Assembly (NCBI GenBank): GCA_033584155.1
Contig: CP138355.1
Span: 4,987,501 to 5,051,500, forward strand
Direction of reading: 5' to 3'
From: Candidatus Electrothrix scaldis
GTDB taxonomy: Bacteria; Desulfobacterota; Desulfobulbia; Desulfobulbales; Desulfobulbaceae
Length of the DNA: 64,000 nucleotides
Positions 11,670-39,265 of this stretch are shown piece after piece; position 1 is the stretch's first letter; every line of letters begins with the position of its first letter. The position numbers and the translations under genes are program-made. Under the pieces are notes generated by a model that saw only the letters and a program-made list of their open reading frames with translations, ran no database searches and was not told the DNA's origin.

Positions 11670-11749
11670 TTTTTATTTCAGAGTTAGATGGTTTTGAACG
11701 AATTTAAAACACGCTACATAACGAAAAAACGGTTAAATAGCGCCCCTGC

Positions 11750-11798
11750 ACCGGCCTTTCACGCCGGCAACACCGGTTCAAATCCGGTTGGGGACGCC
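11750..11798 (+). tRNA. tRNA-Glu 3' fragment (attachment site)
   Basis: The segment holds a perfect anticodon arm (CCGGC CTTTCAC GCCGG, anticodon TTC) and a T-arm with CACCGGTTCAAATCCGG. It ends in the acceptor 3' strand GGGGACGCC. The D-arm and the 5' acceptor strand are absent: upstream bases do not pair with GGGGAC. So this is the 3' half of a tRNA-Glu gene. Displaced tRNA 3' ends mark one side of an integrated element, and the terminator right behind it suggests this is the original chromosomal end. Confidence 0.85.
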
Positions 11799-14532: not shown

Positions 14533-16348
14533 ATGTTTCCTCTTACACCAGCAGTGCCCGCACTTGATCACACGAACAATATTTTCGGCAACAAATTTCT
14601 TCGCCGCCCTGATTTAACGACTTTTGATCGCCTTCAAATTGCTTAGGGTGCGGCTCTTTTAAATCAAAGTTATCGTCTTGAAAAAGTGTCAATACTTCAT
14701 TTCACTTTAACTGTTATTTGCCTAAACTGTTCCTGTTAATGCGGTGGTAATTATGGGGTCTATTTTTACCGGATTAAAAGTCGAGCAGTTCGAGCGAATA
14801 ACGCTCAATTTGAAATCTACAATTGATGTATTATTAGTTAGCTAGAATTGAATAAGAAGAGCCGCACCCAATTGCTTACGAGGCACTTTGCGCAAAGATT
14901 TTCGGGCATTGGGGTATGATATCCGCTTTAGCCAAATATCACAATATTTCCAGGACGTTTATTTATAACACCTTGGCGGTTTTTGAAGAAGTTGTTGAAC
15001 TTGCACTTGGAGAGCCCCCCCAACAGATTGAAATTGAGAACAAAAGAGAATATGTTGAGCTGATGATCGTGTTGCGACTTGAAGGTAAATGCAGCGTAGG
15101 AGCAATTTCGACAATAATGAAGCGTCTCAATCACCGTTTTTCCGGACAAGGCACTGTAAGTACGTATTTAAATCATATCGGCTCACTTGTCCCGTCTGGA
15201 CTCATGACTGAAGACAATGTACGGCTTGTCTTTTTGAGCGATGAGGTTTTTTCCGGCAACATCCCTATCTTAATCACTGTCGATCCAACCAGTTCCGCGA
15301 TTTTAAAAATCGAACTGGTCGATAAACGGCGTGCCGAAGAATGGAGCAGGCATTGGCTATGTCTTAAAAAAACGGATTTGAAGCAATTTATTATGTTACC
15401 GACGAAGGTTCCGGGCTCTGTTCGGCCCACGAGAATCTTTTTACAGGTGCCATGAGGCAGCCGGATACATTTCATGCTGTTGCCTATCGACTCGGAGGGC
15501 GTTTAGAGCGTCTTGAAGAATCAGCTTACAAAGCAATCGCTTATGAATATGATCGTAAAGAAAAAATCCTTTCTGCGAAATCGGAAGACGTTGTCAGCAA
15601 GCGAACCGGGAAGTATGAACAAGCGTGTGACAAGGCAGAAAAGGCTATGGAGCTTTATGACAGTTTCTCCTATCTCTATGGCTGTATTCTTAATGAGATG
15701 AAGCCTTTTCACCATAACGGGGAGTTAAGAAATCGTCATCAGGCAGAGGAGAATATTCAGGCGGCTCTTGAGATGATAACATCCCTTGGTCACGAAAAAA
15801 TTAACGATGCCGTTAACAAAATAAGGCGCATCATGCCGACCCTGCTCAATTATTTCGATGTCGCCCGCGAGATACGAGAAGGGCTTGATAAGCTGGCGAT
15901 TGACCAGAACGCCCTGTCATCGCTCTGTTTAGCATGGCAACATCATAAGGCTGTAATCAAATCAAAAAAGACGGACCGCCGTAAAAAATGCGCGGACAGA
16001 GAGCAAAGGTGTCTTGAATTTGCCGAAGGGTATCTTCAGGAAAAATTCGAGATTATCAAAGAGCGTGTATACAGCGAGTTGGATGCGATTGTGCAGAGTT
16101 CGGCTATGGTGGAGTGTATCAACTCCATTATTCGTCCGTACCTGAACACTTCACGGGGACAGGTCAATCAGAATATGCTCAACTTGATCGCTTTTTATCA
16201 TAATAACAGACGGTACCGTGCAGGAAAACGCGCTAATAAAACCCCGATGGAGATTCTGACAGGCAAAAAACAGGATAAGGACTGGACGGAGCTGCTGTTT
16301 GATTTGCTTGAGGAGAAAGATCCTCAATTTTTCTCAGCAGCAGCCTGA
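14533..16348 (+). pseudogene. IS-2 transposase, interrupted by MITE and -1 frameshift
   Basis: The start is the ATG at 14533 (MFPLTPAVPALDHTNNIFGN). The frame runs to 14645, is interrupted by the MITE and resumes at 14879 (IAYEALCAKIFGHWGM). At the A7 run 15366-15372 the frame must slip by -1 to read NGFEAIYYVTDEGSGL and reach MRQPDTFHAVAYRL. With that slip the total is 528 codons. The C-terminal part has a long coiled region and SSAMVECINSIIRPYLNTSRG, a plausible Glu-containing catalytic end. I do not know the IS family. The A7 slip could be mutation or programmed. Confidence 0.8.
14646..14869. mobile_element. MITE copy 1 (224 bp)
   Basis: It has a 13-bp terminal inverted repeat GGGTGCGGCTCTT and a 9-bp target duplication AATTGCTTA (14637-14645 and 14870-14878). 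No coding capacity. A second copy of exactly the same length lies at 29651-29874. It splits the IS-2 transposase after 37 codons. Confidence 0.92.
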
Positions 16349-27108: not shown

Positions 27109-29650
27109 AGATAACCTCGCAGTCTCAGATTAACCTGCCCGGAAGGGACAGGTGTGGAAACGGTGTTTCGGAATTAACAAGAACGATCATTATTGAATAG
27201 TATCGCTGGATATGCGTGTAGAATAAGTATGAAACTGATTCAGGTAAACTGCAAGTTTTTTTTCGGAACAGGAAGAAGGGTTGCAGAGAAATTTTTCTGG
27301 AGATATTGCCCTCGGCCCATCCTCTTCAGGATCCATAGTAGGTAAAAATAAAAAGAAAAATAGGGTAAACCAACCCTTAACCCTTCTGAGCAAGTCGTTC
27401 CAGCCGAGTAAGCCAGTCATTAAAATGCCGACACTTCTGCCGCAGCATGAGCAGGCCGATCTTCTCAGCAACGGCAACACCGGCTGTGACCTTGTCATAC
27501 TCGGGAATTTCGCTAAGAATGCGCTTTGAAGGTGTCGTCACGGGTCCATCATTGATGAGTTCTGGATTCTGACTTGCCACCATAGTAACCAGATTTCCGA
27601 TTGGGACGTCATGCTCCAGATATTCCCAATCCAACTGTTTCGGATCTGCAAAAAGCAAGGCCTCGAATTCGTGCAACTGAATGTATGGAATAAAACGGCT
27701 ATCGCCGACGCTCTCAGCCATTTTTTGCTCCAGGATTCCAACCCGTTCATAAGGATCGCTGTTTCTCATCGCCTCGGCATAGCCAGGAAAATCATCCGGC
27801 AATGCGTAGAAATCAAACATGGTTGTAAAGCGGCACTCCACGTGATCATCCTCCTTCAACCACGCCCGGATATCCTTTTCAGCCTTCTCATAGCTCAGCA
27901 AGCCGCCGCGATATTCCCTAGCCTTCCTTTTATCCCTGCTCGTTAAGCAATGGTTCGGTAAATTTTGCTTCAGATTATGCAAGTGCTGCCGCTGTATTCA
28001 ACAGATCTTCATAATCGAAGTCGAATTTATCTGAAACCAGCTCAATATCCAGTTTGGATAAAATTCGGTCAAGAAATAATTTTTCGGAATAATAGTCAGT
28101 TACATCTCTCATTGAGAAAGGAGTTCCCTGGTTTTCAACACTGTCATAAAAATTGGCTTTAGCGATTGAAACGGCGGTTAGTGAAGAGTTGAAGTGAAAA
28201 TACAGTTTGTTTTCACTTCTTGCCTGACAATGCGTGAGGCCGGTATATTGTTTCGCATCCCGAAAGAGAAACTCTATCTGAAATCGAGCCTTGTAATACT
28301 TGTAAATCAAGAATCCGTCCAGATTCAAATCGGTAGAGAAAAGAATAGCATAACTGTCGGAGCATTTCTTGTAGATATAGGCGATACGAACATTGCACTT
28401 CAGCAGCACGCTATTGACGACAGCAGTATATATAATGATTTCATCATCTTCATAACAGGTGTCGAAACGGTACGTCTCGAGTTTTTTCCATCGGATTTTT
28501 CCGTCATATTGCCTCGGTCGCCCCGGTCCCGGCATTCTTGGCCCTGTATACAAATAGCGCATATTCGCATTTTTGGGAAATTTACTGACAAGATGCAACC
28601 CGGTATTTTCAGTTATGCCATCGACAAACTTTTTCTTTGCCGCAGCACCGTCGTAAACAAAATAGTCAGCGATTTTATCAAGTTCTGGGGCACGGTTGAT
28701 CACTTGATTAACATAAAAATCAATTCGGCTTTCATTATCTGGGAGAGTTCCCGGAGTTTGCTCACATTCAAGATGAAAGGCTGTATTCGCTTTAAGGTCG
28801 ATAACCGCAAGAGAGCTTATTTCAAGTCCAGGCAACGACTTGGAAGCGCATCCACTCCAGAACTTGGCACCTAAATTGAGCGATTCTTGATATAAAATAA
28901 TCCTTTTCCATGTTTCAACCATATGTTATTATTCATGTAAGTAAAGAACTACAGCTTAATTGATTTGCAACCCTCCGGGTGAAGTACCATGAAGAAGAAA
29001 AAAAACACGACCTATCGAAAAAGTGACCTGAAAATTAATTATATTGACATAACTGACGACTGTTTGACCAGTCGGTCAGGTCTGTCTCTTTTTATAGCGT
29101 ACCTGCATGGTATTTCATTATTCCCTATTATTGAGAGTTTATTCGGCGATCTGAGAAAAAGCAAAAAAGGTGCATCGGCGGTTGAGATATTCAAGCAGAT
29201 ATTCTGTTTCATGATGGACGGAACCAGTCGACATCTGGTGTACTTTGACGATCTTAAGGCAGATAAGGGCTATGCCGCCTGTATAGAGACATCAGAGGAT
29301 GACATGGCCTCCTCGCATACAATCAAGCGTTTTTTCGGCAATTTTTCTTTTGTTAAAGTGTTTGTTTTTCGACGTCTGCTGCAGAAACTGTTCATTTGGC
29401 GATTGAATATAACCAAGCCAGCCGTTGTTGAACTCGGCATTGATACAATGGTTATGGAAAACGATGACGCAGAGTGTCGACATGGAGTAAAACCGACCTA
29501 TAAAAAAAAGAAAGGATTCCAGCCGTTACAGATGAACTGGGGAAGATTTTTTGTAGATGCGGTTTTTCGCGGTGGTGATAAGCACTCGAATCACGGTGAC
29601 ACTGTCCAAAAAATGATATTGCATATTGTGAATCGCATCAGAAAGGAATA

Positions 29651-29874
29651 GGGTGCGGCTCTTCTAAATCAAAGCTAGGGTATTGAAAAAGTGCCAATAC
29701 TTCATTTCACTTTAAGTGCTATTTGTCTAAACTGCTCCTGTTAATGTGGTGGTAATTATGGGGTCTATTTTTACCGGATTAAAAGTAGAGCAGTTCGAGC
29801 GAATAACACTCAATTTGAAATCTACAATTGATATATTATAAATATGTTAACATCAAAACAGAAGAGCCGCACCC
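29651..29874. mobile_element. MITE copy 2 (224 bp)
   Basis: It has the same ends (GGGTGCGGCTCTT) and length as copy 1. The 9-bp duplication AAAGGAATA lies at 29642-29650 and 29875-29883. Interior sequence is largely the same as copy 1, with about 15-20 base differences by eye. It interrupts the IS-C copy 1 transposase after 220 codons. Confidence 0.92.
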
Positions 29875-30448
29875 AAAGGAATATCGACATGATGTCCCGA
29901 TTGTTATCCGAATGGACAGTGGTTTTTTCGACCAGAAGATTTTTGAATTTTGTGAGCAACTTGGTGTTGGTTATATCTGTGGTGGGAAGATGTATAAAGA
30001 TATAAAACTCGACTATCAAGTTTTTAAAGTTAGGCAACGTTGGGCATGAACTGTTATAGTTGATGGATTTCTTCATTTATCCCATTAACTTTTTACATGA
30101 CATTGCCTTATCATACTTCACGATTCCCCTGCATTTATTAAAACATTTGTCGATGAGCTTGACAGCAGTTTGAAAAAACATGACCCTGAAGCCGGACTTT
30201 CCCGTATTCAGAGAAAATGGCTATCATTTTGTATCTTCGGCATATTGATGATGAACTCTATAAACTGGGCGAGCTTTGAACGTGCCGGTTTTGGCGGATA
30301 TAAAAAAGCCGCTCTTTCGTGGATGTTTCGTCACGGCAAAATATTCTGGGATCATCTGCTGATCGCAAGTGTCAAGCTTGTTTTGCGACAATACGATATA
30401 AAAGAAGGCATTGCTGTGTTGGATGAGCTGGACCGGGCCCGTTGTAAA

Positions 30449-32187
30449 CCTAAATTGAGCGATTCTTGATATAAAATAATCCTTTTCCATGTTTCAACCA
30501 TATGTTATTATTCATGTAAGTAAAGAACTACAGCTTAATTGATTTGCAACCCTCCGGGTGAAGTACCATGAAGAAGAAAAAAAACACGACCTATCGAAAA
30601 AGTGACCTGAAAATTAATTATATTGACATAACTGACGACTGTTTGACCAGTCGGTCAGGTCTGTCTCTTTTTATAGCGTACCTGCATGGTATTTCATTAT
30701 TCCCTATTATTGAGAGTTTGTTCGGCGATCTGAGAAAAAGCAAAAAAGGTGCATCGGCGGTTGAGATATTCAAGCAGATATTCTGTTTCATGATGGACGG
30801 AACCAGTCGACATCTGGTGTACTTTGACGATCTTAAGGCAGATAAGGGCTATGCCGCCTGTATAGAGACATCAGAGGATGACATGGCCTCCTCGCATACA
30901 ATCAAGCGTTTTTTCGGCAATTTTTCTTTTGTTAAAGTGTTTGTTTTTCGACGTCTGCTGCAGAAACTGTTCATTTGGCGATTGAATATAACCAAGCCAG
31001 CCGTTGTTGAACTCGGCATTGATACAATGGTTATGGAAAACGATGACGCAGAGTGTCGACATGGAGTAAAACCGACCTATAAAAAAAAGAAAGGATTCCA
31101 GCCGTTACAGATGAACTGGGGAAGATTTTTTGTAGATGCGGTTTTTCGCGGTGGTGATAAGCACTCGAATCACGGTGACACTGTCCAAAAAATGATATTG
31201 CATATTGTGAATCGCATCAGAAAGGAATATCGACATGATGTCCCGATTGTTATCCGAATGGACAGTGGTTTTTTCGACCAGAAGATTTTTGAATTTTGTG
31301 AGCAACTTGGTGTTGGTTATATCTGTGGTGGGAAGATGTATAAAGATATAAAAGAATTTGCAAGTGAGACAACCCGTTGGAGGCGTTTTGCCGCACCCGG
31401 TAAGAAAGATATTTGGGAGTATGCGGAATTCGGCACTAAAAGGGGTAATTGGAAGCAATTTCGACGTGCTATATACTGTCGCCTGTGCAACCACGGGTCT
31501 CAGCTTCGGCTTCCAGGAACTGGTCCAGACACCGTGATCATTACAAATCTTGGGCGTGGCGGAACTATTGACGAACTTCTTGAAAAGGCGGGAGTTATGT
31601 CAGAATATGTAAGTGCCAACGCTATTGTTGCAGGGTATCATGTACGCGGTAGCGACGAGTTGGTTAACCGAGGTTTCAAGGATTTTGGCCATGAACAACT
31701 GCCGTTCACTCGATTCACTCCAAACGCTGCGTGGTATTACATGCTACTGGTCGGCTTTTTTCTTTTTGAATCATTCAAAGAGGATGCAGCTTCTCCCGTA
31801 GTTTCAATAACAGCCTATGCATCAACAGTGCGCCGTCAACTGATAGATGTAGCGGGTAAAATTGTCAGGCACAGCGGTCAGGTTGTATTAAAAGTGGCCC
31901 GGTGTGCTTTTGAAGGGCTTCAATTAGCCGAAATGTTAAAAAGGTGTATTGAGCCCCCTGTGTTACAACACTAGGTGAGCATCTCTGGCAATTCTCAATT
32001 TGAATTCAGACAGGATAAGTGCGCCCAATTTTCATGAAAACTGCGGAAATTGGCCCCAAAACGTAACGGATCTGAAGAAAAGCTATATTCAGAGGTGTTT
32101 TTGTTTTCCCCTGAGAACCAATTTTTAAAAAATTGAGCTTTTCTTACCGGAATTGCTTTACCCAGACCATGAATCGCTCAATTTAGG
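30449..32187 (+). mobile_element. IS-C copy 2: complete IS1380-like element (1739 bp)
   Basis: Complete ends (CCTAAATTGAGCGATTC inverted repeat) and the duplication GTAAA (30444-30448 and 32188-32192). It is inserted in IS-D, which sits in IS-C copy 1, so this family landed inside an element that had landed in another copy of itself. It is in direct orientation with copy 1. Confidence 0.95.
30568..31974 (+). CDS. IS-C transposase (IS1380 family), intact
   Basis: The 468-residue enzyme has VVELGIDTMVMEND (first Asp, about residue 150) and KKGFQPLQMNWGRFFVDAVF. IVIRMDSGFFDQKIFEF (second Asp, about 228) follows, with a C-terminal region RFTPNAAWYYMLLVGFFLFE. This is the IS1380 pattern. No stop or frameshift. 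The ATG is preceded by GGGTGAAGTACC. It is the only undamaged transposase in this nest and could supply activity to both copies. Confidence 0.92.
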   Translation: MKKKKNTTYRKSDLKINYIDITDDCLTSRSGLSLFIAYLHGISLFPIIESLFGDLRKSKKGASAVEIFKQIFCFMMDGTSRHLVYFDDLKADKGYAACIETSEDDMASSHTIKRFFGNFSFVKVFVFRRLLQKLFIWRLNITKPAVVELGIDTMVMENDDAECRHGVKPTYKKKKGFQPLQMNWGRFFVDAVFRGGDKHSNHGDTVQKMILHIVNRIRKEYRHDVPIVIRMDSGFFDQKIFEFCEQLGVGYICGGKMYKDIKEFASETTRWRRFAAPGKKDIWEYAEFGTKRGNWKQFRRAIYCRLCNHGSQLRLPGTGPDTVIITNLGRGGTIDELLEKAGVMSEYVSANAIVAGYHVRGSDELVNRGFKDFGHEQLPFTRFTPNAAWYYMLLVGFFLFESFKEDAASPVVSITAYASTVRRQLIDVAGKIVRHSGQVVLKVARCAFEGLQLAEMLKRCIEPPVLQH

Positions 32188-33928
32188 GTAAAAAAACAAA
32201 AAGGATCCATAAGGCATACAAACAGAAAGATAAGAAAACAGGTGGTTACGTTAATGGCCAAACTGTTGTTCTCTTACTTCTGGTGACGGACAGCATTACT
32301 TTTCCGGTTGGTTTCAAATTCTATATGCCCGATCCTGTTCAAACTGCCTGGAAGAAAGAGGATAAAAAACTTCGCAAGAAAGGGGTTCCAAAGGAGAAAC
32401 GACCAGTGAGCCCCGATCCTGATCCGGAATATCCGACAAAACAGAGCCTGGCACTGGAGCTGCTTAAAGAATTCAAACAAAATCACCCGGAAATCTCTGT
32501 ACAATGCCTGCTGGCCGATGCCTTGTACGGAACCGGTGATTTCATGGATAAGGGGTGCAGCATACTCGGTACAAGCCAGGTTATAAGTCAGCTTCATTCC
32601 AACCAAATTATATATTACCGAGGGCGAAAGAAGAATCTGTCTGATTTTTTTAATGTAACCTGCAAAGGGACAATACGTAAAGTGCGTGTCCGGGGCGGTG
32701 AAGAAATCACAATGACTGTGGCCAGTGCTCGCCTCCATGTTAAAGCGCATGGTAAAAAACGCTTTGTTATTGCTGTTAAATATGAAAATGAAAAAGACTA
32801 CCGTTATCTTGTTGCCACTGATATGAGCTGGCGAACAGAGGATATTATTCGCGCCTATACCTTGAGATGGCTTGTGGAGGTTTTCTTTGAGGACTGGAAG
32901 CTTTACGAGGGTTGGGGGCAGGAGGCCCGACAGTTTGACGAGAAGGGATCAAGCCGAAGCCTGATTCTGAGTCTACTGTTCGACCACTGCCTCCTTCTTC
33001 ATCCAGAGCAAGTAGCCCGCATAGATAACAAACTGCCTGCGTTTACCGTAGGCAGCCTACGACGAAGAACTCAAATGGAAGGATTGCTTGAATTTATCCA
33101 GTTTCTGCTTCAGCAGGACAATGCCGGAAAACAGCTTGAAAAGTTAGGCAAAAAAGTCAAAGAGTTTTTTCAGCTTGTTCCTTCTAGCAAACATATGAGT
33201 GGGCGGGATCTCGGAAGACTGGAGGCAACGCCTTCATTATCCTACAGAGCTTGCCATTGTTAGACGAAACCCGAAAAAGGCTCAAAAAACTTGATAGTCG
33301 AGTAAAAGAATTTGCAAGTGAGACAACCCGTTGGAGGCGTTTTGCCGCACCCGGTAAGAAAGATATTTGGGAGTATGCGGAATTCGGCACTAAAAGGGGT
33401 AATTGGAAGCAATTTCGACGTGCTATATACTGTCGCCTGTGCAACCACGGGTCTCAGCTTCGGCTTCCAGGAACTGGTCCAGACACCGTGATCATTACAA
33501 ATCTTGGGCGTGGCGGAACTATTGACGAACTTCTTGAAAAGGCGGGAGTTATGTCAGAATATGTAAGTGCCAACGCTATTGTTGCAGGGTATCATGTACG
33601 CGGTAGCGACGAGTTGGTTAACCGAGGTTTCAAGGATTTTGGCCATGAACAACTGCCGTTCACTCGATTCACTCCAAACGCTGCGTGGTATTACATGCTA
33701 CTGGTCGGCTTTTTTCTTTTTGAATCATTCAAAGAGGATGCAGCTTCTCCCGTAGTTTCAATAACAGCCTATGCATCAACAGTGCGCCGTCAACTGATAG
33801 ATGTAGCGGGTAAAATTGTCAGGCACAGCGGTCAGGTTGTATTAAAAGTGGCCCGGTGTGCTTTTGAAGGGCTTCAATTAGCCGAAATGTTAAAAAGGTG
33901 TATTGAGCCCCCTGTGTTACAACACTAG

Positions 33929-34031
33929 TACACTGCGGCGTAAGTCTCACGCTACTTTTTACAACAACATGCCTAACTGAAATCAGGAAAACGCCTCTGG
34001 GAAAGCATGGGGATATTTAAGCCGAGCTGTA
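33929..34031. mobile_element. 103-bp mini-element
   Basis: IS-C copy 1 has 107 extra bases compared with copy 2 at this point: a 103-bp insert plus a repeated CTAG (33925-33928 and 34032-34035). Its ends form an imperfect inverted repeat (TACActgCGGCgTAA against TACAgctCGGCtTAA). Non-coding. A very short MITE is the best explanation. Confidence 0.75.
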
Positions 34032-34808
34032 CTAGGTGAGCATCTCTGGCAATTCTCAATTTGAATTCAGACAGGATAAGTGCGCCCAATTTTCATGAAA
34101 ACTGCGGAAATTGGCCCCAAAACGTAACGGATCTGAAGAAAAGCTATATTCAGAGGTGTTTTTGTTTTCCCCTGAGAACCAATTTTTAAAAAATTGAGCT
34201 TTTCTTACCGGAATTGCTTTACCCAGACCATGAATCGCTCAATTTAGGTGGCAACATGTGGAGTTTTTATTCCTGCCTTCGGGATGAAGGAGCAGTCTCC
34301 GGCAAGAATTCTGTGAGGAGAACAGAACCTCTCCACAAGTTGCTTGTTAAAATTGAAAAAATCAAATTCTTTCTCAAAATGACTCCGGTATGTTTTCTCG
34401 GAGAAGCGACCATGTCGGGCCATCGCAAGAAAATTGATACGGCCCGGCAGAGCGATGAAGAGAATAAAAATATGGATCAGGGCATTTTTTCTGACAGCTT
34501 TGATTCCCTCTATTTCGCTTAAAATACTTCTTATTTTTTGTTTCAACACTCTGTATGTCCAGTAATAATTTCAAGAAAGTCTCTGGACAACAGAGAGACA
34601 AGATAAAGATAAGGTTGTTTTTATTCAAGCTTTTTTAGTCCTAAGAGGCTCTAAGTATCATTTGCCTCGCTGCTGAAAAAAAATTACCGAACCATTGTTA
34701 AGACACAACGTGCATCAACAAAAACACCGAAGCCAGCCAGATGAGGCGCGAGCACTTTCCCGGCAAAGGACTGCTCGGTCTGTCCTTCGGCAGTGATATG
34801 CAGACGAA

Positions 34809-35927
34809 TCACGGCTGACCTCCCAGCACGTTCTTTTCCCATAACTCAGAGAGACTGTAACGCTCAAGCCAGTCCTGCAACTGTTCAGGATCAAGTTTTT
34901 TAAAAACAGAACAACCTTTCTGCTCATTGCGCTCAACCACAACCACATCTTCTGCGGAAAATTCATCAACAAGACGAGTAGACTGTGTTGCCAGCAGCAC
35001 CTGCGTTTTTTGTGATGCCGAACGAACGATCCCGGCCAATTCTCCAATAGCAGCAGGATGAAGCCCTAGTTCCGGCTCATCCAGGACAATAAAGGTTGGC
35101 AGGAGTTCCGGCGGCTGAAGCAGCAGAGTTGCCAGGGCCATAAAACGGAGGGAACCGTCTGATATCTGATCGGGACCGAATAAATAATCACTGCCTGATG
35201 CATCTTGCCAGTTCAGGCTAACATAATCTTTATTGCCAGGAATCGGCTCCAAGTCGAAGTCATGGAATTGCGGCATAACGCGCTGTACGTGCCGGACGAT
35301 TCGATCATAATATCTTTGATACGCTTTGTTTTGCTTGAGCATATTCAGAAAGGCAGCCAGATTTCCTGCATCGCTACGGAGATATTTGGCATCATCAATA
35401 TAGCCGCGATCTTTAATCTTGGCTGTGTCTGAGGTGTCATGAAACTGATAACTCCGTACCCCCGACAAAAGGCGATACAAGACTGCACTGGTTTTCCTTT
35501 GGTCGCTTGCCAACCCTGATTCACTTCCACCTGCGTCAAGAAAATACTCCTGTGGCTGTGGTGAAGGAGGGCTAATTTTATGATAAATAATCTTTTCGCC
35601 GCTGACGAATAAACGATCCGGCAAGCCGTGCGCGAGTCTCACCTCATAGGTATCATGGGAGGATTCGGATGCAAAGGCAAGCTCAAAGGAAATGGATTCG
35701 GTGTGTTTGGGGCCGTAAAAAAGCAGGTGGCTGACCCCGTATTTACCCACGTATTGCTGCAAGGCTCCGCTTGTCATGAAATTGAGCATCTTGAAGAATG
35801 AAACCAGATTACTTTTGCCGGAACCGTTAGCTCCGAGCAGGACCGTCAGGTCACCGAAGGGAATGCGTTGACCGACACGGCCATCAATAGATTTGTATCC
35901 CTTTATATGCACTTCTTTCAGTTTCAT
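34809..35927 (-). CDS. AAA ATPase of the RecF/OLD-like group, partner of DUF4276
   Basis: The 372-residue protein begins MKLKEVHIKGYKSI and has Walker A LLGANGSGKSNLVSFF (about 31-46). A signature-like ISDGSLRFMALATLLL (about 255) is followed by Walker B FIVLDEPELGLHP (about 280) and a switch LLATQSTRLVDEF. This is the ABC-type ATPase of AAA_21/AAA_15 proteins. Its stop overlaps the DUF4276 start (GTGA). AAA plus Toprim-like pairs act in several anti-phage systems (OLD/Gabija/PARIS type). This pair may be such a system, but its effector is broken by IS-B. Confidence 0.88.
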   Translation of the reverse strand: MKLKEVHIKGYKSIDGRVGQRIPFGDLTVLLGANGSGKSNLVSFFKMLNFMTSGALQQYVGKYGVSHLLFYGPKHTESISFELAFASESSHDTYEVRLAHGLPDRLFVSGEKIIYHKISPPSPQPQEYFLDAGGSESGLASDQRKTSAVLYRLLSGVRSYQFHDTSDTAKIKDRGYIDDAKYLRSDAGNLAAFLNMLKQNKAYQRYYDRIVRHVQRVMPQFHDFDLEPIPGNKDYVSLNWQDASGSDYLFGPDQISDGSLRFMALATLLLQPPELLPTFIVLDEPELGLHPAAIGELAGIVRSASQKTQVLLATQSTRLVDEFSAEDVVVVERNEQKGCSVFKKLDPEQLQDWLERYSLSELWEKNVLGGQP

Positions 35928-37591: not shown

Positions 37592-39265
37592 CCTAAATCC
37601 TGCAATTGATCTTTTTGGCTCAAATGACTAACCATTTGGTGTTGTAGAAAACCAAAAATTCTGAAAATAGTTATCAGTTGATAGTAAAAAACACCGAAAA
37701 GTGCTGTTTCCAGATAAGCAGATGCCTCTTTAAGGCTGATCAAGTAGAATATTTTGCCCCACAAGACGCACTAATCCTGTTGATGGAAAAAAATATTTCA
37801 AAAAAAGAGGTAGTAGTGCTGGTCAGTACAGCCCCACCGCCACCCAGTCATCCCACTGAGTGGAATACAGCATTCGTTCGGGAACAAATAGCTTTTGCTG
37901 CCGTCCACCAGTAGTATACTTCCCAGCCACCCGAACGAGAAATGTACGAATTGTACCTGGCTCCCAGCGACGTAATACAGCATTACCGCTCAATAAAGCC
38001 ATCCATCGTATCGTGTTGTATGCCAGAATAGCAGCTTGAAACAACACACTATTTGCCCAGAAATCTTCTGTCTTGATATGTACCAACGCAGTCTGGTTTT
38101 TTGCTTCCTCAATCCAGGTTTCACAAGTTGCTCGTTGGCCGTATCGTTTGTGGACCTGCCATGGATCAGCAATCTCACTGACCACATAACAGAAGTAATC
38201 GAACTCCTTCATCTCAAACAGGGTCGCTGGTTTTGCCGGGTCAGCCGGTTTCTCTCTGCGGACCGCAACAAAGAGTCGGGTCGAAGACCAGGTCGTACAT
38301 TTATGAAAAAAGATACATTGTTCCCAACCGGCCTGCCCGGGGACCGGCTCCCAGGATTGTTTGGACAGAAGGGTGACCAGCCCCTTGAGCTTAACCTTGA
38401 TCAGGTAACTATGACCATACTGATCCAAAAGATCAAGCAGGGCACCAACAAAAAAACCGCTGTCGCCCCTGAACAAAATCCGGGTTCCATTGGGAAGGTG
38501 TGCCAGAAGTTGCTTGGTAAACTCGACAATACCATTACTTGTATAGGCATTGCCGCATCGAAGCCACCCTTGCAATATCTCTTTGCTTTCAGCGCAAAAT
38601 GCAAGCAGAGGATGATACGATTTTGCACCGCGTTTATGTGGATTAAACCCTTTGGCCGCTCCTTGCTGAGAACCGTATACCGTCTTTTCTGTGGAATCCA
38701 CATCAACAACCAGACAGTGGGCTGCACCGACTTTACTTTTCCCGGATCGCAATCCCTTACGCCACATGCGAGCACGCAACCGATGATTAAGAACTTCCAG
38801 GTTATTGATATGACGATAGCTGAATGTTCGAAAAAGGCGGCCAAAGGTTGTTTCGTCCGGGATTAACCGCCATCCTGCTATCCGGCAAAGTACGCTATCT
38901 GCCCAGACTGTTGCAATATTGCTGATAGAACGAGCTCCGCCGATAATAGCTATCAAAGGGAGAAATATTATATCAACTGCATCATAAGTGGCGGTGGCTC
39001 CGCGTTGATGTTCTAAAGTTTCCTGGATAAGCTGGCCAACATTATGTTTTTGCAGGAACTTTACGGCAGGAATCAAGCCTGCCTGTGCTGTAACCCCTTT
39101 TGCTCCTTTATTAATTTGTATTTTTTTGGGCGAGACTCGGGCAGATCGTTTATTCTGTTTAGACTTCATAAAAATAGTGACCCTCTTCTGTAGTAATTTT
39201 ACCTTTAACATATTGAGGATTATACTATTTTTACGATACCCTTTCAACTAATTGCAGGATTTAGG
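37592..39265 (-). mobile_element. IS-E: IS1380 family element (1674 bp)
   Basis: The 16-bp inverted repeat is CCTAAATCCTGCAATT, and the 5-bp duplication TATCA lies at 37587-37591 and 39266-39270. It starts with CCTAAAT like IS-C, and the transposases belong to the same broad family but differ clearly. It is complete, with an intact transposase. Confidence 0.95.
37823..39169 (-). CDS. IS-E transposase (IS1380 family)
   Basis: I take the ATG at 39169 (MKSKQNKRSARVSPKK) as start; the frame is open upstream to 39247 but without a ribosome-binding site. Motifs: CLVVDVDSTEKTVYGSQQGA (first Asp), KRGAKSYHPLLAF, TRILFRGDSGFFVGALLDLL (second Asp) and a C-terminal ATCETWIEEAKNQ (Glu). VYG.Q.GA and YHPLLAF are clear IS1380 family marks. 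Undamaged. Confidence 0.92.
   Translation of the reverse strand: MKSKQNKRSARVSPKKIQINKGAKGVTAQAGLIPAVKFLQKHNVGQLIQETLEHQRGATATYDAVDIIFLPLIAIIGGARSISNIATVWADSVLCRIAGWRLIPDETTFGRLFRTFSYRHINNLEVLNHRLRARMWRKGLRSGKSKVGAAHCLVVDVDSTEKTVYGSQQGAAKGFNPHKRGAKSYHPLLAFCAESKEILQGWLRCGNAYTSNGIVEFTKQLLAHLPNGTRILFRGDSGFFVGALLDLLDQYGHSYLIKVKLKGLVTLLSKQSWEPVPGQAGWEQCIFFHKCTTWSSTRLFVAVRREKPADPAKPATLFEMKEFDYFCYVVSEIADPWQVHKRYGQRATCETWIEEAKNQTALVHIKTEDFWANSVLFQAAILAYNTIRWMALLSGNAVLRRWEPGTIRTFLVRVAGKYTTGGRQQKLFVPERMLYSTQWDDWVAVGLY

Follow-up and report, generated by a model that had tools for sequence, protein, structure and literature searches.

Candidatus Electrothrix scaldis is an uncultured environmental cable bacterium with long-distance electron conduction. 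The stretch of its DNA analyzed here (the window, 64,000 nucleotides) corresponds to positions 4987501-5051500 of a genome that forms a single contig (5,089,909 bases) and contains a nest of six transposable elements in one host gene, four elements deep in the order IS-B > IS-C1 > IS-D > IS-C2 (IS, insertion sequence). The interrupted gene codes for a DUF4276 protein. Its 3′ part lies at 27377-27947 (minus strand; PF14103, 3.2e-44; PADLOC HEC-01B, 1.6e-64) and its 5′ part, with a GTG start at 34812, at 34698-34812 (minus strand). The adjoining AAA ATPase gene (34809-35927, minus strand; PF13304, 1.2e-25) is uninterrupted and HEC-01A-like (PADLOC HEC-01A, 5.7e-128, the top hit among 105 models with a match). 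HEC-01B and HEC-01A form a candidate anti-phage pair in PADLOC, and on these matches the host gene is one half of it.

Architecture of the nest

The outermost element, IS-B (27948-34697, minus strand, including its transposase gene), is IS701/IS4-like, carries all other layers, and is flanked by the target duplication TTAAG (27943-27947 and 34698-34702). It measures 1366 bp in most of its uninterrupted copies in the 5,110,699-bp genome of a congeneric species, referred to here as G005. Within IS-B lies IS-C1, the first copy of an IS1380-family element (28870-34248, plus strand), bordered by TGGCA (28865-28869 and 34249-34253) and broken by three inserts: a 224-bp miniature inverted-repeat transposable element (MITE) of subfamily a (29651-29874, plus strand) between copies of AAAGGAATA (29642-29650 and 29875-29883); IS-D, another IS701/IS4-like element (30008-33302, plus strand), between copies of TAAAA (30003-30007 and 33303-33307); and a 103-bp mini-element (33929-34031, plus strand) between copies of CTAG (33925-33928 and 34032-34035). 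IS-D, with an uninterrupted length of 1551 bp as given by its copies elsewhere in the genome, is itself broken by the second IS-C copy, IS-C2 (30449-32187, plus strand, 1739 bp), which is uninterrupted, has a transposase of 468 amino acids (30568-31974), and lies between copies of GTAAA (30444-30448 and 32188-32192). All of these duplications are read directly in the sequence; for IS-B, IS-C1, IS-C2, and IS-D they are perfect 5-bp duplications, accompanied by terminal inverted repeats. Every boundary and duplication named in a first-pass annotation of this DNA is present, and its proposal that IS-C had landed inside an element that had itself landed in IS-C is supported. The same annotation described five levels: the nest is real and holds six elements, but five is reached only by counting the host gene.

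The IS elements and their copies elsewhere

IS-C1, with all its inserts left in, was aligned piecewise to IS-C2. Its outer pieces fall on four segments of IS-C2, 1-781 with one mismatch and 773-905, 901-1526, and 1522-1739 at 100%, covering all 1739 bp end to end with one mismatch overall, in agreement with the reconstructed length proposed earlier. The 9-bp overlap is the MITE duplication and a 5-bp overlap is that of IS-D; at the mini-element break, CTAG plus one chance base makes up the 5 bp of overlap. The single mismatch, an A at IS-C position 272, is private to IS-C1, with a G in IS-C2 and in all 16 other copies read there (13 from this genome and three from G005); the copy at 1196k lacks this region and is outside the comparison. 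The open frames of 469, 450, 397, and 227 codons claimed for the split genes are also borne out, the first by the IS-C2 transposase (468 amino acids and stop), the second by an intact IS-D open reading frame (449 amino acids and stop), and the last two by codon phases that agree across the two remaining breaks, with their counts obtained by arithmetic only.

The IS-C transposase scores 256.5 bits against NF033539 (IS1380; cut-off 180), which places the element in that family, and the IS-C ends, CCTAAATTGAGCGATTC, are matching terminal inverted repeats. By these ends the genome holds 16 IS-C copies, 15 of them with both ends; a perfect 5-bp duplication is found at 13 of the 15 and none at the other two. 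Six other full-length unbroken copies that were read are 99.4-100% identical to IS-C2, which indicates recent IS-C activity. Seven of the 16 copies carry an insertion of another element. IS-C DNA had no match in a plasmid collection. In IS-C1 the transposase frame is broken by the MITE and IS-D; the mini-element sits at the stop codon and leaves the frame whole.

Two uninterrupted 1551-bp IS-D copies are present in the same genome, each with two mismatches to the window pieces. The G005 copy of IS-D (G005:C1:246436-250117) is broken by ~2.6 kb, with IS-D positions 272-275 matching on both sides. The best IS701 model gives IS-D 77 bits (curated cut-off 150) and the best match of the IS-B fragment reaches 69.4 bits (curated cut-off 170); both elements are therefore filed only as IS701/IS4-like. 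IS-B is single in this genome, besides two short partial matches. G005 has nine copies, all uninterrupted, at 99.7-99.8% identity; the window pieces match all nine, with three mismatches in total for seven copies and one difference more for each of the other two. Duplications around the G005 copies are perfect and 5 bp long at four of nine, and 4 bp long with one extra base at each element end at the other five. Between the two species IS-C is up to 99.9% (G005 locus L097) and IS-B up to 99.8% (L137) identical, compared with 90-97% for host-locus DNA, which suggests recent exchange of these elements.

The two small elements

The mini-element resembles the opposite ends of a 1523-bp IS, with 97% identity over its positions 1-34 and 98.7% over positions 27-103, and an 8-bp word, CTTTTTAC, is common to both ends at the deletion point. 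The transposase of the 1523-bp element scores 345.7 bits against the ISL3 model (cut-off 180). With both ends matching an autonomous ISL3 element and the interior deleted, the mini-element is an internal-deletion derivative of this ISL3-family IS.

The MITE has the ends and duplication length of an ISKra4-family IS. Eight long elements with MITE-type ends were found, seven of ~1690 bp and one of 1297 bp; they have in common with the MITE the ends GGGTGCGGCTCTT (one long-element end being GGGTGCGGCTCCT) and 9-bp duplications, which are perfect at six of the eight. The transposase of the one long copy that was translated scores 308.5 bits (ISKra4 cut-off 205). The MITE has no room for a transposase, and its interior resembles the long element at ~70% identity only over roughly the last 85-107 bases; its ends and duplication, common to an autonomous ISKra4 element, suggest that it is ISKra4-derived.

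Four other IS-C copies carry MITEs, all at an identical 9-bp site (IS-C 89-97) that lies upstream of the transposase start, 22 bp before it, and all in the same orientation. These composites are at 361415-363384 (L077, 361k; MITE-b), 2355934-2357905 (L076, 2357k; MITE-a), 1949654-1953306 (L074, 1949k; MITE-a broken by an IS1380-type IS), and 2486966-2489170 (L075, 2487k; MITE-b and MITE-a in tandem, the 9-bp target being present three times). Perfect IS-C duplications surround three of them (361k, 2357k, and 2487k) and are absent at 1949k. Subfamilies a and b differ at 25-26 of 224 bases. The simplest account is at least two MITE insertions at one IS-C site, with the composites having moved afterwards. 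On the sequence comparisons we tentatively suggest, with slightly less than even confidence, that IS-C may act as a repeated landing pad, its leader having received both MITE subfamilies at one identical 9-bp site, with the composites moving as units, so that non-autonomous elements would ride an unrelated family and maybe alter its transposase expression. One composite was examined for an outward MITE promoter into the IS-C transposase; one promoter-like site was found, compared with 1.8 expected in shuffles, and no MITE-borne promoter is therefore claimed.

Other MITE copies are also of note. A MITE-b copy lies in the window at 14646-14869 with a perfect 9-bp duplication, AATTGCTTA. One MITE insertion (L014, L112) is common to both species, and its duplication, ATCTCCTTT, and homologous flanks in both indicate that it was probably inherited. 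At 3079k (3079798-3083380; L082:499-4081) a MITE-a holds a complete IS1380-type element, the same as that at window 37592-39265, and a second copy adjoins the complete one with its last 653 bases inverted. The arrangement fits an IS1380-type self-insertion followed by recombination between inverted copies; with this element apparently inside its own copy, self-nesting in the genome is not confined to the window.

The empty site and the integrity of the assembly

A search of the related genome, as the first-pass annotation had proposed, found the outermost host site empty in G005. The site reads CTCGTCAAGACAC there, compared with CTCGTTAAG and TTAAGACAC in this genome, and has TCAAG in the place of the duplicated word; the host flanks are contiguous, with identities of 96.6% (left) and 90.0% (right). 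The DUF4276 open frame of G005 ends earlier than that of the window, probably because of a 2-base gap in the flank alignment, and for this reason we call the G005 gene uninterrupted rather than intact.

IS-C1 and IS-C2 are 99.9% alike and less than 6 kb apart, and the genome paper, in its available text, reports chimaeras in an amplified-DNA assembly (PMC10926707), both of which would be expected to invite a misassembly of near-identical repeats. We regard such an origin of the nest as highly improbable. All six insertions are flanked by separate perfect duplications, whose lengths recur at other copies of the respective family (for IS-B, at four of nine G005 copies), and a misjoin would not produce these. 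The available text of the same paper also describes the strain GW3-3 genome as circular and closed, 5 089 909 bp, assembled from native DNA sequenced on Nanopore and Illumina platforms; predicted IS number 120 and account for 3.4% of it (PMC10926707).

Order of events

The nest was very probably built by six successive transposition events. IS-B would have landed first in the DUF4276 gene of the candidate defence pair, and IS-C1 would then have landed in the IS-B transposase gene. The MITE, the 103-bp ISL3 derivative, and IS-D would each have entered IS-C1, and a second IS-C would have landed in IS-D. Both small elements would have been moved by a transposase, of ISKra4 type in the case of the MITE. 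A dead insertion in a dispensable gene may have provided a harmless AT-rich landing pad while several families were active. The MITE, the mini-element, and IS-D could have entered IS-C1 in any relative order. The nest is a clean record of transposition: if its layers arrived in place, all three direct hits and the nested fourth occurred in the time of about one substitution per 1739 bp, and IS-C1 acquired no more than one private base meanwhile.

None of the other IS-C and IS-D copies of this genome repeats the window junctions (in G005 the search covered five of 22 IS-C candidates), and this favors inner elements arriving after outer ones. Some inner layers might instead have come with a carrier, IS-C1 already containing its MITE or IS-D already containing IS-C2, moved in trans by intact copies; the four IS-C copies with MITEs at one 9-bp site, three of them in different places with perfect IS-C duplications, are the kind of object that such a route would need. 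We consider it unlikely for the window, where the breaks are at other points: no other IS-C copy in the genome is broken at 773/781, 901/905, or 1522/1526, both other IS-D copies are uninterrupted, and the MITE and IS-D in IS-C1 break the transposase frame, whereas the MITEs of the other composites lie upstream of its start. The earlier statement that the order is known for most layers is thus parsimonious and agrees with junctions that are unique in the genome, but it is unproven, as composites probably move here.

Tolerance and targeting

Element-in-element junctions met in the genome without a census number at least 15: five in the window nest, two each at 1949k, 2487k, and 3079k, and one each at 2357k, 361k, 4163k, and 1196k. 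A crude sequential model, in which 144 elements (90 of them 1400-bp stand-ins) were inserted at random into the genome, was used for comparison. When 100% (uniform targeting), 50%, or 30% of unique DNA was permissive, none of 1500 runs reached a nest at least four deep with at least six elements; at 20%, 12%, 8%, and 5% such a nest arose in 0.13%, 1.4%, 5.3%, and 24.6% of runs, respectively.

The targets of the MITE follow an AAWNNNWTT-like profile. In a profile built without the IS-C sites, the MITE sites within IS-C come 2nd and 7th among 1731 9-mers, the latter being that of IS-C1, and the coincidence of two random MITE hits within IS-C would be ~2.3%. High-scoring targets number 12.7 per kb in IS-C and 14.0 in IS-B, compared with 7.5 in the rest of the window.

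Beyond tolerance, the elements could have an active preference for one another as targets, based on sequence or structure, and this would account for the seven of 16 IS-C copies hit, for the use of one 9-bp site by both MITE subfamilies, and for a nest that the tolerance model makes rare at the fractions fitting the nesting met. Such a preference seems doubtful to us, since the MITE sites conform to an ordinary AT-rich target profile, stronger tolerance (5-8% permissive) yields the nest in 5-25% of runs, and the 15 junctions are a lower bound.

Several points weigh against the account of six successive insertions. Support for the assembly is the published description of native reads in the available text of the genome paper, rather than raw reads. 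Composites of IS-C and MITE (361k, 2357k, and 2487k) are likely to have moved in this genome, and the inner-after-outer order is consequently not guaranteed. MITE targets are about as dense in IS-D (7.8 per kb) as in the window, and the ISKra4 element is poorer (4.7). In the model, the permissive fractions were chosen by the analyst and 90 of the 144 elements are stand-ins; it yields 11.8 to 18.4 junctions at 20% to 12%, where the nest appears in only 0.13% to 1.4% of runs. Tolerance alone therefore leaves the nest an outlier in this crude model, and a degree of targeting, or a higher tolerance at this locus, may have to be invoked for it.

Elsewhere in the window, Rfam gives a partial tRNA-like match at 11737-11789 (31.5 bits), where ARAGORN reports none.

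Comparison with known systems

The nest records the activity of several element families in an unculturable bacterium, where a candidate anti-phage gene was the first to be broken. It also provides a case for testing whether tolerance or targeting explains the accumulation of transposons in bacteria. No description of it was found in the available text of the cable-bacterium and general mobile-element literature searched, and the word "nested" is absent from the main text of the GW3-3 genome paper, as far as that text was available (PMC10926707). The available text of a prokaryotic MITE review makes no mention of nested, tandem, or within-element insertion, of ISKra4, or of hitchhiking. Among NCBIfam families, IS-C belongs to IS1380, the element that has its ends in common with the MITE to ISKra4 (one copy), and the mini-element parent to ISL3, all above cut-off; the IS701 and IS4 models are matched by IS-B and IS-D only below theirs.

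In Lactobacillus delbrueckii, the available text of the relevant paper reports nested IS in four two-element cases, in which an IS of one family lies inside an IS of another where two or three IS adjoin (PMC4082628). The likeness is clear, but the present nest comprises six elements, is four deep, has the same IS at two depths, and has an empty site in a congener. A survey of IS hotspots similarly finds, in its available text, that existing IS loci take further IS of other families; it counts consecutive IS, whereas here the nest is layered with duplications at each junction (PMC9208149). IS inside IS is already known in bacteria, and the nest illustrates this familiar event particularly well without representing a novel type of system. 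Its depth and legibility distinguish it, as do the empty site and the presence of one IS at two depths.

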